NCBI GenBank assembly: GCA_022566515.1
Contig: JADFIT010000019.1
Location: 1 to 34,773 of the forward strand
Source: Gemmatimonadota bacterium
GTDB lineage: Bacteria > Gemmatimonadota > Gemmatimonadetes > Gemmatimonadales > GWC2-71-9
Direction: 5' to 3'
DNA: 34,773 nt
Shown: piece by piece, positions 6,386 to 34,034 of the stretch
How the letters are laid out: the number at the start of each line of letters is the position of its first letter
How positions within the stretch are numbered: the stretch's first letter is position 1
The notes under the pieces: model-generated
What the model was told of the DNA's origin: nothing
The model's input: the letters and a program-made list of their open reading frames with translations, nothing else
Database searches by the model: none
Translations under genes and position numbers: made by a program

Positions 6386-8797
6386 TCACACGTGAATCTC
6401 GAGTGGCCCGTACGGCTGCTTTCGACCTTCCAGGGCGGCCAGGATCACGTCGGTGGTGAGTGGTGTTCGGCAGAGACATTGTCCGCCCAAGGCGTCTGAG
6501 ATGGCAGAGGCAACCGCTGCGGATCCCGCGCCGACGGGCGGCTCGCCGATTCCCTTTGCCCCCACCGGGGTCTGGGGATCGGGCTTGTTCACGGCACCCC
6601 ATTTCATCTCGAGCGGGACGTCCAGAATTCCGGGTGGTCGTGCAGTATAGAACCGCTTGGCAAACGACACGCCCCACTGTGGGTCGAACACCCACTTCTG
6701 GCTCCGTGCAATCCCGAAACCCTGGACGGCGCCGCCGTGAAGCTGTGCAGCAAGGCTCCGCGGATGGACCACCGTCCCGCAATCGGTGACGGCGGTGTAT
6801 TCCTTGAGGTCTATTTGGCCGGTTTCCACGTCCAACTCTACCAGCGCGAAACCGACCACGAACGACCAGGTGCTCCCCTCGTGGCGATAAGTATCACGCG
6901 CCGCCGCAACGAGCCCTTGACCGGCAAGGGCCCGGGCCGATGTGACGGTGACAGCGTTGAGATTGTCGGCGAGTTCGTGCCCACTGTACTTGCCGCCGAT
7001 TTGGATGGCGCGGCGCGCGGCGTAGGCGAACGACATGCGCTGCAATCGGTTTGATCTGAGGTAGACGCTGCCGTCGGCGGTTGCGTAGTCGCCGGGCGAT
7101 CCTCCGAATTCCCGTGCCGCTATCTCCTGGAGCTTGCGCTTCGCGTCCATCGCGGCCGCGTGGTTGGCGCGGGTGTGAGCGTGTGTGGTCTGGCTGCCCG
7201 CTTGAACGGAACTCCACGGGAGGTGGTTGCTCGTGTCGCCCCACACGACCACGCAGCGATTCCATGGCATGCCCAACACGTCTGCCGCCGCCCGGGCCGT
7301 GTCGGCGATGGAGTGTGTGCCCAGGTTCCCGATGCCTTGGTGAATGTAGAGCTTGCCGTCGGGACGGATCACCAGCAATCCGTCGAATCCGGTGCTCCCT
7401 CCCACGAACGGACTCAATCCCACACCGACCCCCGTCACCTTCGTACCGTTGCGCCGTCCGCTGAGCCGGATCTTCTCCTCCCAGCCGAAGATTTCCTTAC
7501 CCTTGTCCAGAGCCTCACGCACGTACGCGCTGGTCAAGGAAGCCCGCTGAGGCCCTAACCAGCCGTTGTTGTCCGGCGCGTTGATGCGCCGAATCGCTAC
7601 TCGGTCGATGCCCAACTGGCGGGCGGCCTTATCCATTATGGGTTCGAGCATGCCCACGATCTGGGCGCCGCCCGGCCCTCGCTGAGCCGATCGGGGCGGG
7701 GTGTTCGTGTAAAGCGAAACTCCCCGCAGGCGCATCGAGAGCGGCTGGTAGGAGAGAGAGGCAACGGTGCCCGCCGTACGGAAATCGCCAGAGCCGTACG
7801 CACCGCCGTCCTCCACGATATAGAGATCCACCGCGGTCACACGCCCATCGGCCCGGTATCCCATCTTGACCCGCGCCTGGAAACCGGGCCGTGACCGTCC
7901 GATGTAGTTCTCCTCGTAGCGGGTTATGCGAAGCATGACCGGGCGACCGATTTTTCTGGACAGCAGCGCCGGCACCAACTGGATCGGGCTTCCCCGAATC
8001 TTGCTGCCGAATCCGCCCCCGCAGTATTCGCCGATCAGCACCACGTCATCCGGTTCGAGGTCCAGCGCCCGTGCCACACCCACTCGGGTCTGGGCGACGC
8101 TCTGGGTCGAGGTGTGTAGATAGAGCTTCCCGTTTTGCCAGTACGCCATGGCGCTCCGAGGCTCCATCGGATGGTGAGACAGCGATTGGTGAACGATCGT
8201 CTCATCCAGGACCAGAGCGGCCTCGGCGAACCCGGCGTCGATGTCCCCAACCGTCCACTCGGTCTGGGGTTCGCCCATCGGCATGCGACCCTCGCCGGCT
8301 TCCGCGAAATCAGCCTCTGTCCATTTCAGCGTCCGGAACCCTTGCTCTTCCGGGTCCCGCGATCTGAAGAAGTAGTTGCCTTCGGTTCGCGCGTTGGGAC
8401 CGTTGGGGTGCAGGCTCTTTAGCGGATCCAGCACGAAGGGAAGGGGCTCGAAATCGACCTTGATCCGCTCCACGGCGTCGGCGGCCGTCGTCTCGTCCAC
8501 CGCAGCCACCGCCAGAATGGGCTCGCCCTCGTAGAGCGGCTCGTAGGTTAGTGCTCTCTCGCTCCGGGGAGGCGCCTCCGGGAGGTCGTCGGGCGTGAGC
8601 ATGCCAAGGACGCCGGGCATGCTGAGGGCCTCGCTCGCGTCCACGTTGCGCACCCGGGCATGCGGCATCGGGCTCAACAGCAGCTTGGCGAAGACCATGC
8701 CTGGGGCACGAAAGTCTTCGGCAAACTTGGCTCGCCCGGTCACCTTTGCTACGAGGTCGGGCGGAACGATGTCTTTTCCTATCAGTTTCTCGGCCAT
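6386..8797 (-). CDS. Molybdopterin-binding catalytic subunit, xanthine dehydrogenase / aldehyde oxidase family
   Basis: The product is 803 aa. Residues about 15-125 are the Ald_Xan_dh_C a/b hammerhead (VTGRAKFAEDFRAPGMVFAK). The rest is the two-part molybdopterin domain. GGGFGSK (260-266) is the hallmark cofactor-binding loop. GIGEPP near the C-terminus supplies Glu752, at the position of the catalytic base of xanthine dehydrogenase. There is no Tat signal, as expected for a subunit exported bound to the Tat-bearing 2Fe-2S partner. The ATG has GAGGTG about 7 nt upstream and lies 14 nt after the 2Fe-2S gene. The reaction is hydroxylation of an aldehyde or N-heterocycle; the substrate cannot be read from sequence. 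The chain is longer than PaoC-type subunits (about 730 aa), with extra sequence around residues 130-185. Confidence 0.92.
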   Translation of the reverse strand: MAEKLIGKDIVPPDLVAKVTGRAKFAEDFRAPGMVFAKLLLSPMPHARVRNVDASEALSMPGVLGMLTPDDLPEAPPRSERALTYEPLYEGEPILAVAAVDETTAADAVERIKVDFEPLPFVLDPLKSLHPNGPNARTEGNYFFRSRDPEEQGFRTLKWTEADFAEAGEGRMPMGEPQTEWTVGDIDAGFAEAALVLDETIVHQSLSHHPMEPRSAMAYWQNGKLYLHTSTQSVAQTRVGVARALDLEPDDVVLIGEYCGGGFGSKIRGSPIQLVPALLSRKIGRPVMLRITRYEENYIGRSRPGFQARVKMGYRADGRVTAVDLYIVEDGGAYGSGDFRTAGTVASLSYQPLSMRLRGVSLYTNTPPRSAQRGPGGAQIVGMLEPIMDKAARQLGIDRVAIRRINAPDNNGWLGPQRASLTSAYVREALDKGKEIFGWEEKIRLSGRRNGTKVTGVGVGLSPFVGGSTGFDGLLVIRPDGKLYIHQGIGNLGTHSIADTARAAADVLGMPWNRCVVVWGDTSNHLPWSSVQAGSQTTHAHTRANHAAAMDAKRKLQEIAAREFGGSPGDYATADGSVYLRSNRLQRMSFAYAARRAIQIGGKYSGHELADNLNAVTVTSARALAGQGLVAAARDTYRHEGSTWSFVVGFALVELDVETGQIDLKEYTAVTDCGTVVHPRSLAAQLHGGAVQGFGIARSQKWVFDPQWGVSFAKRFYTARPPGILDVPLEMKWGAVNKPDPQTPVGAKGIGEPPVGAGSAAVASAISDALGGQCLCRTPLTTDVILAALEGRKQPYGPLEIHV

Positions 8798-19002: not shown

Positions 19003-19263
19003 CCCCAAAGTTGTGACCCTCATTCGCACGAAGTGGAGGCTGAGTGCCCACGGTGCCAGTTCTTGGGCCAAGTAGGGTGGTGGGAGATCGAGTGATGCCT
19101 GTCAGGTAGCCCAGCTTTTCAGAGGCGATGCCGAATCCCGGTCACGCCGTTTTTTTGTTGCAGTGAAGATGTCGTTGCTCTTGCGTGGGCCTCCTCGAAG
19201 CCGCATTCTCTGCGTGCCAAATGAACCACCTTTTTGCTCCAGACACATTTGAGGAGGTCGGCA

Positions 19264-19680
19264 ATGGATTTCCTGGTTTCCGACGGTTTCCGCACCGCGA
19301 TTCACGTGGTGGGACGGGTGCTGTTCTCCATGATGTTCATCATGAGCGGTATGAACCATCTCATGAAGCTCAACGACATGTCCGCATACGCGAAATCGAA
19401 AGGAGTGCCTGCACCCAAGGCGCTGACAGTTGTAAGCGGACTCATGATCATGGTGGGCGGAGTGCTGGTACTTCTCGGATGGCACCGGTTCATTGGGGCG
19501 GGGCTGATCGCGCTCTTCCTCTTTCCCACAGCTATGATCATGCACGCGTTCTGGAAGGAGACCGATCCCGCCGCTCGGATGAATGAAATGGCGCACTTCA
19601 TGAAAGACATGGCGATGGCTGGTGCGGCTCTGTTGATAGCGTTTTACTCCGGACCGGTTTGGCCGATGAGCTTGGGATGA
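19264..19680 (+). CDS. DoxX family membrane protein
   Basis: The product is 138 aa from ATG 19264, chosen because GAGGAGG lies six bases upstream; the frame opens 30 bases earlier. It has four hydrophobic helices (about 10-30, 48-68, 72-92 and 112-132) with the family's opening RTAIHVVGRVLFSMMFIMSG and the GVPAPK loop before helix 2. DoxX proteins are small membrane proteins associated with quinone or thiol redox and oxidative stress in some bacteria; the role here is unassigned. It stands alone on the plus strand, about 260 bases after the esterase, and is convergent to the exchanger pseudogene. Confidence 0.88.
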   Translation: MDFLVSDGFRTAIHVVGRVLFSMMFIMSGMNHLMKLNDMSAYAKSKGVPAPKALTVVSGLMIMVGGVLVLLGWHRFIGAGLIALFLFPTAMIMHAFWKETDPAARMNEMAHFMKDMAMAGAALLIAFYSGPVWPMSLG

Positions 19681-19744
19681 AGTGTGTGGCCAGGTTGAAC
19701 GAAGCTTCATGAAGATGTAGCCGGATATCGCGCCACTTGCTCGG

Positions 19745-20406
19745 TCACGCAGGGACGAAGAAAAACGCCACCGCCAGGATTGCGTACACGGCGAGAAGCT
19801 GTACGCCTTCCATCCAGTGCGTTTCTCCATCCTGTGAGATGACGGCCATGATCCCCACTGACGCGGCGATCGCCACGACTTCCATGGTGGTAAACAGCAG
19901 GTCCATGGGCTGCGGGCCGATGAAGTAACTCAGGAAGACGAGCATTGGGGCCACGAAGAGTGCTATCTGCAGCGATGACCCGACCGCAATGTTGATGGAC
20001 AGGTCCATCTTGTTCTTGAGGGCCACGACAACGGCGGTCGAGTGCTCGGCTGCGTTACCTATGATCGCCACGAGATCGAGGCCTTTACCAGGTCGTGCAA
20101 TCCGGCCCGCAACGCTACGATCGCAATGATCAACTCGGCGGCGTTTCCGAAGGTTGCGTTGAGGAGTCCGCCGACTCCTTCTCCGACATGTGATGCCAAG
20201 TGCTCCGTGGCTCGGCCCATCCATCCGGCTAAGGGAATGATGGCGACGGCTGACGCGATGAATACCACGATTCCACTGGCGTGAATCGCGAAGTCCAGCA
20301 CCAAGGCAAGCGGCACGAAGGCGAGCATGAGGAGCAGAATGTGGTCGACAGTGAGAACTCGCTTCACCGGAACCTCGGGGGCAAGGGTCGCCTTCAATTT
20401 CCTCAA
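19745..20406 (-). pseudogene. Broken calcium/proton (CaCA/Cax) exchanger with internal deletion and frameshift
   Basis: Two pieces of one exchanger lie in different frames. The upstream piece (20406 to about 20075) has [16 protein letters not shown], a helix, and the first CaCA signature [18 protein letters not shown], running to [10 protein letters not shown]. The downstream piece (about 20080 to 19745) has the second signature [20 protein letters not shown] and [18 protein letters not shown], then closing helices. In intact relatives of about 350 aa, the two signatures are about 170 residues apart; here they almost touch, so roughly 130-150 residues are missing. The join falls within about 20067-20080 and also shifts frame. 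The first piece starts at a TTG. The gene is either truly inactivated or misassembled. Intact function would be Ca2+/H+ antiport across the inner membrane. Confidence 0.85.
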
Positions 20407-20472
20407 CCTCAGGCTCGATCGCTAGTGGAGATCTCCGATGTAAGGACGCGAGTCGTTCGGTAGGTTCGACAG

Positions 20473-20484
20473 ACCCGCTCGGGT
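20473..20484. promoter_or_regulatory. 12-bp palindrome upstream of the MATE gene
   Basis: ACCCG-CT-CGGGT is a perfect palindrome ending 14 bases before the MATE ATG, in the 92-bp divergent region shared with the exchanger pseudogene. It is a possible operator; chance occurrence is also possible in GC-rich DNA. Confidence 0.3.
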
Positions 20485-20498
20485 ACATTCCCTTCACC

Positions 20499-21902
20499 AT
20501 GCACGCCCCACCTAAACCCTTCCGGCTTTGGCCCGCGCTGAGCGAAGCAATCAGGGGATCGAAGCAGGACTATACCTCCGGTCCAATCGGTCGGTCGATT
20601 CTCCTTCTAGCGGTGCCGATGGTGCTCGAGACCGTGATGGAGTCGATCTTCGCCGTGGTCGATATCTTTTTCGTGTCACGGCTCGGTGCGGAAGCGGTTG
20701 CGACGGTGGGTCTCACCGAAACGATGATGACGTTGGTGTACACCGTAGCGATGGGATTGAGCATCGGTGTAACGGCAATGGTTGCGCGTCGGATCGGAGA
20801 AAATGATCCGGACGGTGCTGCCCGCACGGCCGTACAGGCGATCGGAGTTGGCGTTGCAATTGCAGTCGTGCTGGGAGTCGTCGGGGCTATCTTCGCACCC
20901 CATCTCTTGAGGGCGATCGGCGCCACACCGGAGATGATCGCTCCCGGCGTGAGTTATACGAGAATCATGCTTGGCGGTAATGCGACAGTCCTCCTGTTGT
21001 TCCTGATTAACGCTATCTTTCGAGGGGCTGGGGACGCGACGACGGCGATGCGGGTACTGTGGTTGGCCAACGGTATCAATATCGTACTCGATCCGATGCT
21101 CATTTTTGGTCTGGGTCCCTTCCCGGAACTGGGCATAAGGGGTGCAGCCATCGCCACCAATATCGGGCGTGGCACGGCCGTGTTGTTCCAGTTTTATGCG
21201 CTGTCTCGAGCGTCAGGTCGTGTTCGGGTTGTGGCTAATCAGATAAGTGTCAACCTCCACGTCATGTGGCAGCTCATGCGGTTGTCCGGCGCCGGCACGT
21301 TCCAAGTGTTCGTGGGTACGGCGAGTTGGATCGGGCTGATTCGGATCCTCTCGGCGTTCGGCAGCGATGCGTTGGCGGGATACACCATCGGGATCCGAGT
21401 GATCATCTTCGCGCTTCTTCCTAGTTGGGGCATGAGCAATGCTGCGGCCACGATGGTGGGACAAGCGCTGGGTGCAGGGAAGCCGGAGCGCGCGGAACGC
21501 GCCGTATGGATTGCGGCGTTCTACAACATGATATTTCTTGGCGCTATTGGGTTGCTGTTCATCATCTTTGCACCGGAAATCGTAGGCGTGTTTACGTCCG
21601 ATCCGGGACCGGCCAATTATGCTGTTAGTTGTTTGCGCATTGTGAGTACCGGTTTTCTCTTCTACGCGTACGGCATGGTACTCACGCAATCGTTCAACGG
21701 AGCGGGTGACACATGGACGCCGACCATCATCAACCTCTGCTGTTTTTGGATTCTCGAACTCCCCTTGGCTTACGCGTTGGCCCATCCGTTTGGGATTGAA
21801 GCGCGAGGAGTATTTTTCGCCTTGACCATTGCCTTCTCCTCGCTCGCCGTGGTCAGCGCGGTACTGTTCCGGCGGGGTAGGTGGAAGACGAGGAAGGTGT
21901 AG
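20499..21902 (+). CDS. MATE family efflux transporter
   Basis: The product is 467 aa with 12 predicted helices in two MatE repeats. Features typical of the family are [19 protein letters not shown] in helix 1, [35 protein letters not shown] and [12 protein letters not shown] in the first half, and the matching [23 protein letters not shown] and [12 protein letters not shown] in the second half. It is likely an Na+- or H+-coupled exporter of cationic drugs or metabolites. The ATG lacks a clear Shine-Dalgarno. The stop TAG is followed at once by the GTG of the helicase gene, so the two are probably co-transcribed, an odd pairing without an obvious functional link. Confidence 0.93.
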
Positions 21903-24830
21903 GTGTTTCACCAACCACTCGCCGCTCAGCGCCGCGCCATCGAGTCGGGGATGGGGCCCGTTCTGGTCATAGCAGGTCCCGGGGCTGGAAAGACCTTTTG
22001 TCTCATCGGCCGTGTCGTCCACCTCATCACGAAAGAGGCGATGCCGCCGGAGCGCATCTGCGCGGTGACCTTCACCAACAAGGCGGCAGAGGAGATTGCC
22101 GCCCGACTCAAGCATACGTTGGGACCTCGGGCAGAAAATGTTACCCGAGGCACGCTTCACTCGCTGTGTGTGACGATCTTGCGCGAGCATGGGGAGTCCA
22201 TCGGTCTGGCGCGAGGGTTTGGGATCGCAGACGAGAGCTACCAGCAATCGGTCTTGCGGCGTATCGGAGTGTATTCCCGCAGGCGGTTCAGTCTCCTGAC
22301 TTTGTTCGGCCGCCACCGGCTTCAGCATCATCCGCTGTCTGCTGAGGACGAGACGGTGTTCTTGCGTTACAACGCAATCCTCACCCGCCGAAACATGCTC
22401 GACTTCGATGGCATCATAGCGCGCACTGCCGAACTGCTTGAGAAGCACCGAGAAATAGCGCGGTTGGTGGCCTCTCGGTGGGACTACGTGCTCGTGGATG
22501 AGTTCCAGGACCTCAACCCAGCCCAGTACTTCATCCTAAAGCAGCTCGTCCGAGACCACGGCAACTTTTTCGCTGTGGGCGACGAAGAGCAGTCAATTTT
22601 CTCGTGGACCGGTGCGGATCCGGAAATCCTCGTCCGGTTCCAGGACGAGTTCGATATTCTGGAGCCGATTGTGCTGGACAGGAACCGCCGTTGCTCGCGG
22701 CAGATTTTCGAGGTGGCGCGAGCACTCGTGGCGCAGAACCCGACCCTCTTCGACAAGCATCTGCGTGCTGAGAAAGAATCTCGGCACGTCGTGACCGCAT
22801 ACTCCTTTGAAGACGAAGCGGCGGAGAGTACGTGGCTCCTTGCCGATCTCATTGCGGACCGCGAAAGCGACGGGGAAAGAACGTGGGGAGATTACGCTCT
22901 CCTCTACCGCCAGCATCGAGTAGGCGAGCAGCTCGAGCAGTGGCTGGTTCGCAATGGTATTCCGTGTCGCTTTGCAAGGGGGCGGTCGTTGAGCGACGAC
23001 AAGGTCATCAGATATGTCGTTGCTTCGTTGCGTCTGGTGAGCATGCCGGATGATCCGATTGCTGTGGATGTGTTCGCCGAGCAGGTGCTGTCGGATTCGT
23101 TGATAGCTCAGGTGCGCGCGGGGGCTGCGAGCGAAGAGAACCTGATCGCCACGATGCGCACGTTTGCACGGCAACGTCCCAAGGCCGATCCGGATGCGAG
23201 AAGAGCATGGCGGTTCATCTATCATGTTGAGAATCTGGGCGCCCTCTACAAGGCGCACTCTACTCTTGGCGGCTTCGTGGAAGAACTCCTGGCGCAAAGG
23301 GTGGGCAAGTATCGCAACGCCCTCGAAGAGCGCCATGATGAGTTGAGCGATCCCGCGGGTCATCCTCAAGTAGTGAAGCTGGCCGAGCGGTTGATAGACG
23401 CCATGGCCAGGAGTGCTCGCATCCAGGTGAAACCACAGCGAGGATTGGAGATTGCGCTACGTGGCATGTTGGTCTCCGCCGGGATCTCAACGGCGGTCGC
23501 TGGTGTTGACGGCGACGTCGAACCTTCTGTTGACGACATGTTGCTTCAGCCGGGAGAGGGCGGGGCCCTTGGCTTGGCGCTTTGTTTGTTCAAGGCCCTC
23601 CAGCTCATTCAGAGTCGCGATTTTGAGGAAGTGCTGGAGGATTACGTTGCTTTTGACCTGGAGACGACCGATAGAGACGTTTCGGAATGCGAGATAGTTG
23701 AGGTCGGTGCGGTCAAGGTGCGTGACGGAAAGGTGGTGGATCGATTTCACTCACTGGTTTGTGCCACGCGCCCCATTTCGTCAGGGGCCCGTGCAGTTCA
23801 TGGCTACTCTCAGGAGGACCTCAGTGGCGCACCGGTGTTCGCCGACGTGTGGCCTAGATTCCGGGAGTTCGTGGGCGACGACGTGCTGGTAGCCCACAAC
23901 GGGCAGAGATTCGATGTGCCGGTTCTCAGGCGGGTCGCCGGCCCCTTGGGTGGGACGGGGACCATGGTCTTCTTCGACACCTTGCCCCTTGCGCGTTCGT
24001 TGTACGAGGACAGTGCCCGCCTGACAGATCTCGCTGATCGGTTCGGCGTGAGCACGGGCCGGGAGCATCATGCCTTGGATGATGCAGAGACGCTCGCTGC
24101 CGTCTGCAGTCAGTTGGGCAAGCAAAAAGTGATTCGGTCACGCAAGTCAACGCTAGTGAACTTGCTCGATTATCTCGGGCTCGGACTGGCGCTCGATTCG
24201 GAGGAAAAGAAGTCCGAAGAGCACAAGATTCTGGAGGAGATCGCCCGGCCGTTCGCGCTCGGCCGATTCTCGGACTGTCTGGAGTTCTACCAAGCCGAGC
24301 GGGAGCGAACTGGTGCGGCGGCTGCTCCCACGGTAGAAGAATTGATCAAGCGCCTTGGAGGCAAGGAGCTGATGGACAAGATACGAACGACCAAGGATGC
24401 GGCGCAGCGGTATCCCGTGGCAATGGCGCGGCTGCAAGCACTCATTGACGCCAGCGGTGCCGAATCGCTGGATGAGAGCGTTCGATCTTTTCTCGAACGA
24501 GTTGCGCTCTCGACATCGCAAGGTGCAGAAGTCGATCCGCACCGTGTCAATCTGCTCACTCTCCACTCCACCAAAGGACTGGAATTCTCGCGTGTGTACG
24601 TGGTTGGTGTGGAGGATTATCAAATACCGGGCTATTACGCCGCGAAAGAGAATCGTCAGTCGGAGATTGAAGAGGCGCGACGGTTGCTGTACGTGGGTAT
24701 GACGCGGGCTGAAGATCGCCTGGTACTCACGAGAGTTGACCGGCGGAGCGGTAGGGAATCTGGGGGGAGTCGTTTCCTCGAAGAAATGGGGATCGCTCCT
24801 ACGAGAATTACTGTTCCTCGAGCGGGCTAG
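21903..24830 (+). CDS. UvrD/PcrA-type superfamily 1 helicase with nested DEDDh 3'-5' exonuclease domain
   Basis: The product is 975 aa. The helicase motifs are complete: Walker A AGPGAGKT (24-31), motif Ia FTNKAAEEI, Walker B LVDEFQD (197-203), motif III GDEEQSIFSWTGA, motif IV near 258-263 (VLDRNR), motif V LLTLHSTKGLEF (884-895) and motif VI LLYVGMTRAEDRL (928-940). Between motifs IV and V, at about residues 580-740, lies an entire DnaQ-like exonuclease: FDLETT (D585, E587), AHNGQRFD (D671) and HHALDDA (H722, D727), so all DEDDh residues are present. UvrD proteins without the insert are near 730 aa, and the excess length equals this domain plus flanking linkers. The GTG start has AGGAAGG five bases before it. 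A DNA repair role combining unwinding and end trimming is inferred. Confidence 0.93.
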   Translation: MFHQPLAAQRRAIESGMGPVLVIAGPGAGKTFCLIGRVVHLITKEAMPPERICAVTFTNKAAEEIAARLKHTLGPRAENVTRGTLHSLCVTILREHGESIGLARGFGIADESYQQSVLRRIGVYSRRRFSLLTLFGRHRLQHHPLSAEDETVFLRYNAILTRRNMLDFDGIIARTAELLEKHREIARLVASRWDYVLVDEFQDLNPAQYFILKQLVRDHGNFFAVGDEEQSIFSWTGADPEILVRFQDEFDILEPIVLDRNRRCSRQIFEVARALVAQNPTLFDKHLRAEKESRHVVTAYSFEDEAAESTWLLADLIADRESDGERTWGDYALLYRQHRVGEQLEQWLVRNGIPCRFARGRSLSDDKVIRYVVASLRLVSMPDDPIAVDVFAEQVLSDSLIAQVRAGAASEENLIATMRTFARQRPKADPDARRAWRFIYHVENLGALYKAHSTLGGFVEELLAQRVGKYRNALEERHDELSDPAGHPQVVKLAERLIDAMARSARIQVKPQRGLEIALRGMLVSAGISTAVAGVDGDVEPSVDDMLLQPGEGGALGLALCLFKALQLIQSRDFEEVLEDYVAFDLETTDRDVSECEIVEVGAVKVRDGKVVDRFHSLVCATRPISSGARAVHGYSQEDLSGAPVFADVWPRFREFVGDDVLVAHNGQRFDVPVLRRVAGPLGGTGTMVFFDTLPLARSLYEDSARLTDLADRFGVSTGREHHALDDAETLAAVCSQLGKQKVIRSRKSTLVNLLDYLGLGLALDSEEKKSEEHKILEEIARPFALGRFSDCLEFYQAERERTGAAAAPTVEELIKRLGGKELMDKIRTTKDAAQRYPVAMARLQALIDASGAESLDESVRSFLERVALSTSQGAEVDPHRVNLLTLHSTKGLEFSRVYVVGVEDYQIPGYYAAKENRQSEIEEARRLLYVGMTRAEDRLVLTRVDRRSGRESGGSRFLEEMGIAPTRITVPRAG

Positions 24831-25818: not shown

Positions 25819-28800
25819 CTAGGCTATATGACTTGCCATGTCGTCCATTGGGAACAAGCTGGGCGAGTTGGGCGGCACGGCCTCACAGAAGAAATGACCC
25901 TGTGCACGTTCGCAGCCCAACTCGCGGAGTTGCGCTAGTTGGTCCGCGGTTTCGACACCTTCGGCGATTACCCGCATGCCGAGTTCATGGGCGAGGGCGG
26001 TGATCGACCGAACGATCTCTATGTTCTTTCGGTCGCTCAACATGTCACGGATGAAGGAGCGGTCGATCTTGAGCGTGTCTATCGGGAACCGGTGAAGATA
26101 ACTCAGCGATGAGTACCCCGTTCCGAAATCATCGATCTGTAGTTGGACGCCCACCGACCGCAGCTGTTCGAGCCTTTCCGCGGCAGATGCAGCGTTATCC
26201 ATGACGACACTCTCGGTGATCTCCAGCCCCAGTCGGCTCGGCTCGAGTCCGACGCGCTCGAGGGTGGCGCGTACGTTCTCCACGAGGTCGGGGTGCCGGA
26301 ACTGGCGTCCAGACAGGTTGACGTGCATCGAGACCAGTCGATCGGCCGGTAGATTTGGCAACCACTCCTTCATCTGGCGGCAGGCCGTTTCCAGAATCCA
26401 GTCTCCGATCGGTAACACGAGCCCGGTTTCTTCGGCGATCGGTACGAAAATGCTTGGGGGGACCATGCCACGCTCTGGGTGGCTCCAGCGCACGAGGGCT
26501 TCGAAGGCCACAACGCTTCCGTCTGAGATGGAGATGATAGGTTGGTAGTAGACGCTGAGTTCGCCACGATCGAGAGCGCCGCGCAAATCGCTCTCCAATT
26601 CGAAGCGAAGGAGCATGTGATGCTGCATGTCGCCGTCGAAGATTTCCTGGCGCGATTTGCCCAACGTCTTCGCGCGGTACATGGCGAGATCGGCGTCCCG
26701 CAAGATTTGCTCGGGATGTTCGTATTTGCGCGAACTGGCCGCTATGCCGATGCTGGCCGACGTTACAACCTCGTGGTCGCCGAGGCTAATCGGGCTCATA
26801 AGCGACTTCTGGATACGATCTGCAATGGTGGACGCCTCTTCCACGTCTTGCACACCGTCCAGGAGAACGACGAACTCATCACCCCCGAGGCGCGCGACGG
26901 TATCGTCGGGTCGGACACACTCGCGCAACCGCCTTGCGACGGTCACCAACAACTGGTCGCCCAGCGTGTGACCCAGGCTGTCGTTGATCATCTTGAAGCG
27001 ATCGAGGTCCAGGAAGAGCACCGCGAAGATGTAATCACCGCGCCGGTTCACGCGGGTCAAAGCGTGGCTCAACCGGTCGATGAGGAGCGCCCTGTTGGAC
27101 AATCCGGTCAGCGCGTCGTGAAAGGCGTCGTGGCGGAGTCGCTCCTCAATTTGCTTGCGATCCGTAATGTCAGACAACGATCCAGCTATACGGTAGACCA
27201 CGTCGTTTTGGTCTTTGAGAGCACTGCCGCGACACAGCAACCACCGGTATTGTCCGTCTTTGTGGCGTAGCCGATGTTCGCTTTCGAAGTGCTCGCTCGC
27301 TCCTCCCACGTGCGCCGAGATCTTGGCTTGGAGGATCTCGATGTCATCCGGGTGCACGCGACTGAGCCACTCGTCCGGGGCCGCTCCTATTTCGTCGTCG
27401 GCGTAACCAATCAGGGCTTTCCAGCGAGACGAATAGTAGATGTTGCCCGTCCGGAGATTCCAATCCCACAGTCCGTCATTGGCGCCGCGCACAGCCAGTG
27501 CATAGCGCTCTTGACTGTCGCGAAGCGCCTTTTCGTCGAGGTGGCGCTGGGTGATGTCGCGTACCACCACCGTGAGCCCGCCGTCCTTTAGTTGGGTAAG
27601 AGAGATTTCTTGGGGAAACGTCGTTCCATCCTGCCGCGTACCATATACCTCACCCCGCCAGTGGCCCGTTTCCTGAACCGTGGGGAGGATTTCCTCGTCG
27701 ACTCGCGTCAGATCGTCTCCGCTGTAGAACATCTTCCAGCTCTTGCCGAGGAGAGAGGCAGCGCTGCTATATCCGTAGATGCTCACGATCGCGTCGTTCG
27801 CGTATTCCACTCGTCCCCCACCGTCCACGATTGCCATGCCGTCCATCGACGCTTCGATGGCGCCCCACTGGCGACGCATCACGTCATCGGCGGCCTTTCG
27901 TTCCGAGACGTCACGCACAATGCCGCGAAATCCCTCCAGCTCGCCGTCGCTAGTCCGAATCGGTGAGACCGATCCCTCTACGAACCGACGTACACCATCC
28001 TTGCGAATGATCTCCCAGTCGACGGCGCCGGTCGGCGCGCCGCCGCGGTCGATCCACTCGAACAGCTCGTTGAGTTTCCCAGCGTTTTCCGCATCGAGGT
28101 ATTTCCTCCCGTCCATGCCAAGCAGCTCCTCGGGTGCATAGCCGAGAATCTTGCAGAGCGCGCGGTTGAGGGCGATGAGCTTGCCCGACGCGTCCAACTC
28201 GTAGTAGCCGTCGTCAATGTGGTCGAGGATCGTGTGAGACTTCTCTTCGCTCTTCCGGAGGGCGTTCTCCGTGTGCTTGTGGGAGCCGAGGTCACGGTAA
28301 ATGCCAAACGCAACGATCTCCCCTCCATTGGCTTCAATTGAGGTGCGGGTGATGGACACGGGAAGCTGCGTTCCGTCCTTTCGTTGGCGGACGGAATCCT
28401 CGGTTACCGTTTCGCCGACTGCGAGGGCCCGTTTCGGAAGGGCCCCGTCCCAACCGCCTTCCGGAGGAGCGATGAAGTCTTCGCACGTTTCGTCTGCGGA
28501 GCAGCCGAACAAGCGGATGAATTCGGCGTTCCCCCGCAACACCCGATCTTCCCGGTCCAGCAACGCGATCGCTTCGGGAGAGTGATGGAATACCTGTCCC
28601 AGAAGTGCCGCTTCGCGCTTGAGAAGGTGGCGCTCCTTCAACGCACGGGAGAAGAGGATCACCGCTACGAGAGTCGCTGCGCTGAGGGACAGCGCGGCTA
28701 TTCCAGTCCAGACGCCGGCCCCGCTCAGGGCAAAGGGCTCGCTACCGCCGAGAGCGACCGGTGCCAAGGAGACTGCCAACAGCAGCACCAACGGCGCCAT

Positions 28801-28890
28801 ATGCCAGTCGCGCAGTCGCCATAAGCCGACGGCCGCCCATCCCAACGCTACCGCGCGCAGGAGGACTGAGATTATTGCAATCAGACTCAT
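25819..28890 (-). CDS. Membrane-anchored multi-PAS GGDEF-EAL c-di-GMP turnover protein
   Basis: The product is 1023 aa. About three membrane helices occupy residues 3-83 with no large periplasmic loop. Four PAS modules follow (about 95-210, 215-335, 340-460 and 465-590), each closing with an RDxSE/RDITxR/SDITDR-like turn. The GGDEF domain (about 595-755) has the metal-binding LDLDRFKMIND and an intact ARLGGDEF, preceded by RPDD, which fits the RxxD product-inhibition site. The EAL domain (about 765-1015) keeps EAL, NLSGRQF, EITES, DDFGTG, LKIDRSF and AEGVET, so both cyclase and phosphodiesterase activities look possible. The many PAS domains point to sensing of redox, light or ligands at the membrane. 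No Shine-Dalgarno precedes the ATG, and the leader folds into alternative hairpins. Confidence 0.93.
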   Translation of the reverse strand: MSLIAIISVLLRAVALGWAAVGLWRLRDWHMAPLVLLLAVSLAPVALGGSEPFALSGAGVWTGIAALSLSAATLVAVILFSRALKERHLLKREAALLGQVFHHSPEAIALLDREDRVLRGNAEFIRLFGCSADETCEDFIAPPEGGWDGALPKRALAVGETVTEDSVRQRKDGTQLPVSITRTSIEANGGEIVAFGIYRDLGSHKHTENALRKSEEKSHTILDHIDDGYYELDASGKLIALNRALCKILGYAPEELLGMDGRKYLDAENAGKLNELFEWIDRGGAPTGAVDWEIIRKDGVRRFVEGSVSPIRTSDGELEGFRGIVRDVSERKAADDVMRRQWGAIEASMDGMAIVDGGGRVEYANDAIVSIYGYSSAASLLGKSWKMFYSGDDLTRVDEEILPTVQETGHWRGEVYGTRQDGTTFPQEISLTQLKDGGLTVVVRDITQRHLDEKALRDSQERYALAVRGANDGLWDWNLRTGNIYYSSRWKALIGYADDEIGAAPDEWLSRVHPDDIEILQAKISAHVGGASEHFESEHRLRHKDGQYRWLLCRGSALKDQNDVVYRIAGSLSDITDRKQIEERLRHDAFHDALTGLSNRALLIDRLSHALTRVNRRGDYIFAVLFLDLDRFKMINDSLGHTLGDQLLVTVARRLRECVRPDDTVARLGGDEFVVLLDGVQDVEEASTIADRIQKSLMSPISLGDHEVVTSASIGIAASSRKYEHPEQILRDADLAMYRAKTLGKSRQEIFDGDMQHHMLLRFELESDLRGALDRGELSVYYQPIISISDGSVVAFEALVRWSHPERGMVPPSIFVPIAEETGLVLPIGDWILETACRQMKEWLPNLPADRLVSMHVNLSGRQFRHPDLVENVRATLERVGLEPSRLGLEITESVVMDNAASAAERLEQLRSVGVQLQIDDFGTGYSSLSYLHRFPIDTLKIDRSFIRDMLSDRKNIEIVRSITALAHELGMRVIAEGVETADQLAQLRELGCERAQGHFFCEAVPPNSPSLFPMDDMASHIA

Positions 28891-32255: not shown

Positions 32256-34034
32256 TCACACCAGCGGCGGGTGATCTCGCAGAAAGGCCGTCGCCGCGGC
32301 TGGCTCCAAGGGCCGGCAAAAATAGTTGCCCTGGCCGAGATCGCATTCCAGATCCTTCAGCTCGGTCAGCTGTTCCTTTGTTTCGATCCCCTCCGCGATG
32401 ACGCGCATGTTCAAGTTCTTGGCGAGCGCCAGGATGGTGCGAATGATCTCGGAAGCTCCCGGACGGGTGCCCATGTCGACGACAAACGATCGATCGATCT
32501 TCAACGTGTCGATCGGGAAGCGGTGAAGGAAGCTCAGTGAGGCGTAACCCGTTCCGAAATCATCCATATGAAGCTGGACATTCAGTGCCTTGAGTTGGGA
32601 GAGCATGCGCAGGGCAGGCTCGGCATCGTTCATGATCGCCGTTTCCGTCATCTCGAGCATCAAATTTTCCGCATCAAGGCCTGTCTCTTTGAGTATGTTG
32701 CCGATTCTCTTCACGGCGTCGGGCTGCGTGAATTGCTTGCGCGATAGGTTGACACTGAGCGTCAATGGATGACTCACCGACTCCATGGACTGCCACTTGC
32801 ATGTCTGCGTGCACGCTTCTCGGAGAACCCACCAGCCGATTTCTTGAATCAATCCGGTCTCTTCCGCCACCGCGAGAAAATCCTTCGGGGCCAGCAACCC
32901 ACGACTTGGATGCTCCCACCGCACGAGGGCTTCCATTCCGGTGACGCGTCCCGTGTCCAGTGCGACGATGGGTTGGTAAAAGGTACGGAACTCGCGTCGC
33001 TCGAGCGCCCGGCGCAAGTCCGTTTCCAACTGTAGCAGCGTCACCGCATTCTGATGCATCACGGTATCGAAGATCTCGTGACTCGACTCGCCGCGTGCCT
33101 TGGCACGACGCAGCGCGAGGTTGGCATCGCGGAGCAGCTGGTCGGGTTGAGTGTATCCGTTGCTGCTCACGGCAATCCCGATGCTCGCTGATACGAATAC
33201 CTCCTGCCCGTCGATGATGAACGGTGCTGCCAGGAGACCACGCATGCGGTTGGCCACGCGCGTTGCCCCGATTTCCTTGGAAATGTCCTCGGCTAGTATG
33301 GCGAATTCGTCGCCGCTCAGCCGGGCGAAGGCATCGGTGGGCCGGAGGCAGGCGTGCAGCCGCCGAGCAACTGACACCAGCAACCGATCTCCGAAGGAGT
33401 GTCCCAGACTATCGTTGATGACCTGGAAACGGTCGATGTTCAGGATCAGGACGGCAAACAGGTAATTCTTCTGTCTCCTCGCGCGCCCCAGCGAGCGTTC
33501 CAAGTGGTGGATGAGCAGAGCCCGGTTCGCCAACCCCGTGAGCGGATCGTGCAGAGCATCGTCGATCAGCTGTTGCTCGGCCCGCCGCCGCTCGGTGAGG
33601 TTCCCACAGGTCGTGACAATGGCGACAGGGCCATCTGGGCCCTCAACCACGTCGGAAATTAGCAGCACCGGGAACGTGGTTCCGTCCTTCCGGGCGTCGA
33701 CAGCCTCCCGCTCCCAGACCCGCACCCGCAGCACCTGTTCCACCGCTAGCCGGCTATGCTCGGGCGCGGCGAGTAGGTCCACGTTCTCCCCGATGAGCTC
33801 TTCTACCGCGTAACCGTGCATGGTCGCATCGGCTGGATTCGTGTAGAGTATGGTGCCGTCTAGATCCGTGATCGTCACCCCGATATGCATCGTGTCGACT
33901 GCCCGCTCGAGACGCTTGAGGGCCTTCTCTGCATGCTGCCGTCCCTTCTCGGCGTCCTCCAGCTTCTCGAACAACTCCTGCATGGCGGGGGTCTCGATGG
34001 CCTTCCCGTCTTGGGCGTCGTGTGTAGCGGGCAT
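32256..34034 (-). CDS. Soluble PAS-GGDEF-EAL protein, GGDEF degenerate, probable c-di-GMP phosphodiesterase
   Basis: The product is 592 aa with no membrane segment. An N-terminal coiled coil (about 18-48) leads to one PAS domain (about 45-160), a GGDEF domain (about 165-330) and an EAL domain (about 340-585). In the GGDEF domain the first metal-binding Asp is replaced (LNIDRFQVIND instead of LDxDRFKxIND), the following Lys is Gln, and the signature reads SGDEF. RPTD matches the inhibition-site pattern. The EAL domain is intact: EAL, NLSRKQF, EMTET, DDFGTG, LKIDRSF and AEGIET. Net phosphodiesterase activity is therefore the better guess, with the GGDEF domain perhaps sensing GTP. GAGGAT lies five bases before the ATG. 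Confidence 0.92.
   Translation of the reverse strand: MPATHDAQDGKAIETPAMQELFEKLEDAEKGRQHAEKALKRLERAVDTMHIGVTITDLDGTILYTNPADATMHGYAVEELIGENVDLLAAPEHSRLAVEQVLRVRVWEREAVDARKDGTTFPVLLISDVVEGPDGPVAIVTTCGNLTERRRAEQQLIDDALHDPLTGLANRALLIHHLERSLGRARRQKNYLFAVLILNIDRFQVINDSLGHSFGDRLLVSVARRLHACLRPTDAFARLSGDEFAILAEDISKEIGATRVANRMRGLLAAPFIIDGQEVFVSASIGIAVSSNGYTQPDQLLRDANLALRRAKARGESSHEIFDTVMHQNAVTLLQLETDLRRALERREFRTFYQPIVALDTGRVTGMEALVRWEHPSRGLLAPKDFLAVAEETGLIQEIGWWVLREACTQTCKWQSMESVSHPLTLSVNLSRKQFTQPDAVKRIGNILKETGLDAENLMLEMTETAIMNDAEPALRMLSQLKALNVQLHMDDFGTGYASLSFLHRFPIDTLKIDRSFVVDMGTRPGASEIIRTILALAKNLNMRVIAEGIETKEQLTELKDLECDLGQGNYFCRPLEPAAATAFLRDHPPLV

Follow-up and report, generated by a model that had tools for sequence, protein, structure and literature searches.

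The gene described here lies in a window of 34,773 nucleotides, by which we mean the whole stretch of DNA analysed, and encodes a protein combining a UvrD-type helicase with an exonuclease (Table 1). According to Pfam, its adjacent genes code for a MATE exporter and a short-chain dehydrogenase, and its GTG start directly abuts the stop of the exporter gene, in the same frame. Several other genes of the window lie on the minus strand. These include the large subunit of a molybdopterin enzyme of the xanthine/aldehyde dehydrogenase type (6386-8797; Pfam), two multi-domain regulators of the PAS-GGDEF-EAL type (25819-28890, read from the sequence alone, and 32256-34034, by Pfam), and a CaxA-like calcium/proton antiporter (19081-20500) that appears to be split, with its N- and C-terminal halves in different frames and its middle apparently missing. 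The antiporter is apparently a pseudogene or an assembly collapse.

Table 1. Features of the nested helicase-exonuclease gene and the exporter gene upstream, in window coordinates.
Feature	Position	Strand	Basis
MATE exporter, upstream of the nested gene	20499..21902	+	Pfam MatE 7.4e-60; neighbourhood clustering
Nested helicase-exonuclease, whole gene (975 aa, GTG start)	21903..24830	+	Pfam; orthologues in other genomes
Helicase part 1, residues 1-478: 1A/1B, first 2A half with motif IV, first 2B half	21903..23336	+	Pfam UvrD-helicase 8-250; alignment with own PcrA
Motif I / Walker A, GAGKT 27-31	21981..21995	+	G29, K30, T31 invariant in 66 sequences
Motif II / Walker B, DEFQD 199-203	22497..22511	+	D199, E200 invariant in 66 sequences
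Insert in 2B subdomain, residues ~479-836 (358 aa)	23337..24410	+	Deletion alignment to PcrA; model of residues 480-850
Small alpha/beta lobe ahead of nuclease, residues 487-572, no named family	23361..23618	+	Secondary structure in models; Pfam empty there
DEDDh (RNase_T-type) 3'-5' exonuclease core, residues 581-749	23643..24149	+	Pfam RNase_T; PDB profile; Foldseek
Catalytic D585 and E587	23655..23663	+	Invariant in 66 sequences
Catalytic D671	23913..23915	+	Invariant in 66 sequences
Catalytic H722 and D727 (DEDDh signature)	24066..24083	+	Invariant in 66 sequences
Helical lobe behind nuclease, residues 750-836, no named family	24150..24410	+	Models
Helicase part 2, residues 837-960: remaining 2B, second 2A half with motifs V and VI	24411..24782	+	Pfam UvrD_C piece 849-943; motifs V (885-895) and VI (926-936) conserved

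A DEDDh exonuclease nested in the 2B subdomain of a UvrD-type helicase

The 975-residue protein matched the Pfam family UvrD-helicase at residues 8-250 (1.5e-65), RNase_T at residues 582-734 (2.1e-26), and UvrD_C (6.5e-34) in two separate pieces, the N-terminal one encoded at 22668-23066 and the C-terminal one covering residues 849-943. Helicase motifs I-VI are all present, in order and with conserved catalytic residues, which places the motor among the SF1A helicases of the UvrD/PcrA type. Motif IV lies at residues 258-263 and motif V at 885-895, and the insert falls between the two, exactly where a sequence-only reading had put the nuclease. Matches to curated NCBIfam models stayed below their cut-offs (344 vs 911 for pcrA, 336 vs 951 for rep); the helicase portion gave no more than sub-threshold likeness to pcrA, rep and uvrD, and the nuclease portion no more than that to the PolC, DinG and dnaQ models.

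The same genome encodes its own PcrA on another contig (737 aa by its GTG start), which we used to locate the insertion. When the family profile was aligned to this PcrA with hhalign and the insert was kept, the alignment ended at residue 394. Deleting residues 479-836 in a script left 617 residues, and these gave one unbroken alignment with PcrA residues 2-644 (E=5e-100, 31% identity). On the generally known subdomain boundaries of PcrA and UvrD, the insertion point is inside 2B; the nuclease had earlier been placed near this subdomain. The window protein is thus a helicase of the UvrD/PcrA type, SF1A, with a DEDDh exonuclease nested inside.

Structure models agree with this layout. AlphaFold2 modelled the whole chain (58-sequence alignment) with a pLDDT of 87.5 and a pTM of 0.73, and residues 480-850 alone formed one confident unit (pLDDT 92.7, pTM 0.85). 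The whole model matches structures of PcrA, UvrD, Rep and Mycobacterium tuberculosis UvrD1 (9dci), and its alignments to 1pjr, 2is6 and 4c30 span ~990 columns with E about 1e-31, as expected of the 1A/1B/2A/2B fold. In Foldseek the insert model is closest to Pol III epsilon (TM by target 0.86, rmsd 1.7 Å) and also matches the exonucleases of PolC and S. aureus DinG as well as TREX1/2; a PDB profile search likewise matched the nuclease to the PolC exonuclease (6.6e-42). The structure prediction that the sequence-only reading had called for accordingly gives an intact RNase-T-like fold within the 2B region, which holds the D, E, D, H and D residues. All exonuclease motifs lie in this one domain rather than scattered, and the helicase keeps both motif V and motif VI.

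Conservation and spread among the Gemmatimonadota

A profile search found relatives, essentially in single copy, in 96 of 395 Gemmatimonadota genomes, so the nested layout has real phylogenetic spread. The carriers belong to four families, here called f1 (47 genomes), f2 (42), f3 (2) and f9 (5), the last including Candidatus Kutchimonas (Palauibacteraceae). When GTDB contigs were scanned with short exact peptide patterns derived from the window, a method that distant relatives would escape, eight relatives of 58-78% identity emerged, all from Gemmatimonadota, along with one further UvrD-type helicase that matched only in the N-terminal part and lacks the nested architecture. In an alignment of 66 sequences, with identities as low as 44%, no substitution occurs at the five nuclease residues or at the motif I and II residues checked, and motifs III-VI hardly vary; the sequence-only reading had named D585, E587, D671, H722 and D727 correctly, and its description of a fully motif-bearing SF1 helicase is borne out. 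Because both active sites are conserved to this depth, the helicase and nuclease activities both appear to be under selection.

The same full-length architecture occurs in independent genomes, including the single-contig chromosomes G158, G166, G184 and G314. In the genomes examined, separate domains were seen only as apparent frameshifts or contig breaks, and a few genomes hold such broken copies. That the fusion is an artefact of assembly or reading frame, a reading for which we found no support, is refuted by the number of genomes with relatives, most of them full length and with invariant active sites, and we give it practically no weight.

The protein tree mostly follows the families. Support is 99 for a single f2 clade and 100 for a single f9 clade nested within f1; two sequences of f1 fall next to f2, which suggests some transfer. 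The f9 loci (L009, L013, L016, L017 and others), from Palauibacteraceae and thus from another order than the window, branch within the window's family and are nearer to it than f2 is, though f2 shares the window's order; this position suggests horizontal transfer. No relative appeared at the threshold used in 295 Bacillota genomes, an empty result that shows little, as that search had no positive control. Plasmid and phage collections gave no match with 80% coverage of the protein, and a script scan of 80 IMG/VR helicase loci together with earlier matches gave no open reading frame combining helicase and exonuclease. A viral or plasmid origin was rejected for want of a full-length match in these collections, and the candidate L046 has no nuclease. 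In BFVD, the large viral proteins A0A3G4ZXM9, H2EDS0, A0A7D3QTW5 and A0A6J5QNL6, annotated as 'helicase' or 'helicase/exonuclease', align to all or part of the model.

Linkage to Ku and co-occurrence with end-processing genes

Clustering of gene neighbourhoods showed that DUF72, Ku and LigD are among the recurrent neighbours of the relatives, and that the MATE exporter is not. The gene does sit directly behind the exporter, as first noted, but this adjacency carries no meaning for function, and we rejected a MATE operon as its functional context. Ku lies within 10.5 kb of the nested gene in 25 of the 84 carriers that have Ku, spanning 16 genera in two families, and in 23 of these 25 it is downstream on the opposite strand. 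The random expectation is roughly 0.6% per genome, giving a naive P of 2e-33 that is far too optimistic given the relatedness of the genomes. As a control, the paralogue PcrA was sought in 80 of these genomes; it was present in 75, and in none of them did it lie within 10.5 kb of Ku. The linkage is not universal: Ku is far off or on a different contig in G158, G166, G314 and many others, linkage is absent in f9, and in the window's own genome Ku is on another contig (C29), leaving the window itself without it.

At locus L074, Pfam identifies a DUF72-Ku-LigD neighbourhood in which LigD has phosphoesterase, ligase and primase-polymerase domains; the three genes lie together near the nested helicase (L074:1832-6067). 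The same clusters include DUF72, a domain of unknown function, in several relatives, and it may act as another accessory of end joining.

Over whole genomes, Ku is present in 84 of 96 carriers vs 148 of 299 non-carriers, with none detected in the other 12 carriers. The AddAB-type nuclease family PDDEXK_1 shows the reverse (9 of 96 carriers vs 181 of 299 non-carriers) and was not found in the window's own genome. These statistics ignore phylogeny. Within f1 alone both associations are weak (p=0.09 for Ku, p=0.19 for AddAB), and clade history thus explains part of them.

Proposed role in break-end processing and comparison with known systems

UvrD-family motors travel 3'-5' along single strands, and DEDDh enzymes are 3'-5' exonucleases that digest from 3' ends. 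The sequence-only reading suggested that the nuclease could degrade the strand during unwinding. Going by these families, the window protein would be expected to combine ATP-dependent 3'-5' unwinding with metal-dependent 3'-5' exonuclease activity, and its natural substrate would then be a 3' end, for example the 3' tail of the tracking strand itself. A 3'-5' trimmer takes away the strand that RecA needs, so that such an activity would fit the cleaning of ends for joining, or the removal of 3' flaps, better than recombinational resection. This polarity, together with the precedents of UvrD1 with Ku and of ExoDinG, leads us to favour, with moderate confidence, break-end processing tied to end joining. 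We propose a second, PcrA-like SF1A helicase with a DEDDh 3'-5' exonuclease in 2B, most likely acting on double-strand-break ends and probably serving Ku/LigD end joining in many carriers. The protein is probably a tool of DNA-break repair that has gone unrecognised. The motor would load onto a 3' single-stranded tail and open or clear the DNA end in the 3'-5' direction, while the nuclease, carried next to the duplex by the mobile 2B arm, would trim overhangs, flaps or mismatched termini at the 3' end. Coupling through movement of 2B, like the pathway itself, is what we infer.

Alternatively, the protein could be a helicase-exonuclease of replication or lesion repair, processing crosslinks or 3' flaps as ExoDinG does and having no special role at double-strand breaks. 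ExoDinG fuses the same type of exonuclease to a helicase and is needed in crosslink repair (PMC12345164), and the nested nuclease is closest to the exonucleases of PolC, epsilon and DinG; yet linkage to Ku recurs, and the PcrA paralogue shows none, which makes this reading rather improbable. It could also be a one-protein substitute for AddAB or RecBCD, resecting ends or serving homologous recombination in carriers that have lost AddAB, as the scarcity of PDDEXK_1 among carriers and its absence from the window's own genome might suggest. The net output of AddAB after Chi, however, preserves the 3' strand for RecA, which is the opposite of the action of a 3'-5' exonuclease, as this would destroy that strand. 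Moreover, the mutual exclusion is mostly between clades and is not significant inside f1, where many genomes have neither the nested protein nor AddAB. Although presynaptic systems yet unknown have been postulated for genomes without RecBCD/AddAB (PMC1193525), we consider this substitution unlikely. A role as an anti-phage helicase-nuclease is very unlikely: the top PADLOC helicase matches are the GajB and RTasHel models, but these reflect generic UvrD likeness, the gene is single-copy with a distribution that mainly follows clades, and no recurrent defence-type neighbour was noticed in the part of the neighbourhood clusters viewed. Nor does the protein belong to Gabija as a GajB, as the exporter and the dehydrogenase, and no GajA-type partner (ATPase-TOPRIM), adjoin the window gene.

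UvrD-family helicases are believed to be turned on and off by rotation of 2B, and a nuclease embedded in 2B would let the conformation of the motor directly control cutting. To our knowledge, the helicase-nuclease fusions known or described (AddA, RecB, ExoDinG) carry the nuclease at a terminus, and we found no description in the open-access literature of a UvrD helicase with a DEDDh nuclease nested inside it. Returning to break-end processing, we tentatively raise the possibility of an undescribed class of bacterial DNA-end-processing enzymes, in which the regulatory 2B arm of a UvrD-type motor has come to carry the nuclease and its rotation gates the trimming of 3' ends. Such enzymes would operate alongside Ku and LigD in those Gemmatimonadota that for the most part have no AddAB. 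The recurrent Ku/LigD linkage, and the fact that carriers almost all lack AddAB-type nucleases, point to an end-processing factor hitherto missed in this little-studied phylum. The layout is a variation on helicase-nuclease fusions, with a distribution examined mainly within the Gemmatimonadota.

The window protein shares its helicase motifs and 1A/1B/2A/2B layout with the SF1A helicases PcrA, UvrD and Rep, to which it aligns continuously once the insert is removed, but these lack the insert of 358 residues that brings the nuclease into 2B; its own genome also encodes an ordinary PcrA as a separate protein, as do 75 of the 80 carriers searched. AddAB, RecBCD and AdnAB also join a UvrD-type motor, similar in fold, and a nuclease in one polypeptide. 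They act as complexes and their nuclease is a C-terminal PDDEXK domain, whereas the window protein has a nested DEDDh nuclease and no partner gene was identified for it; membership of the AddAB/RecB group was rejected, as the protein has no PDDEXK match and scores far under the NCBIfam cut-offs for addA and recB. Mycobacterial UvrD1, the structural match 9dci, is likewise a UvrD-family helicase tied to Ku, which it binds, and takes part in double-strand-break repair (Sinha 2007, as cited in PMC3102665), but it has no nuclease, and for the relatives of the window protein the tie to Ku is one of gene linkage only. ExoDinG (DinG with an N-terminal DEDDh domain, e.g. S. aureus DinG) similarly unites a helicase and a DEDDh 3'-5' exonuclease in one chain, and both activities are required for repair, namely of crosslinks (PMC12345164). 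However, DinG is an SF2 5'-3' helicase with its nuclease at the N-terminus (PMC12345164, PMC11981726), whereas here the motor is an SF1A UvrD type and the nuclease internal, and we therefore rejected membership of ExoDinG. MrfAB likewise pairs a helicase with a DEDDh exonuclease for DNA repair (PMC10889028), but as two separate proteins, where the window protein is one nested chain.
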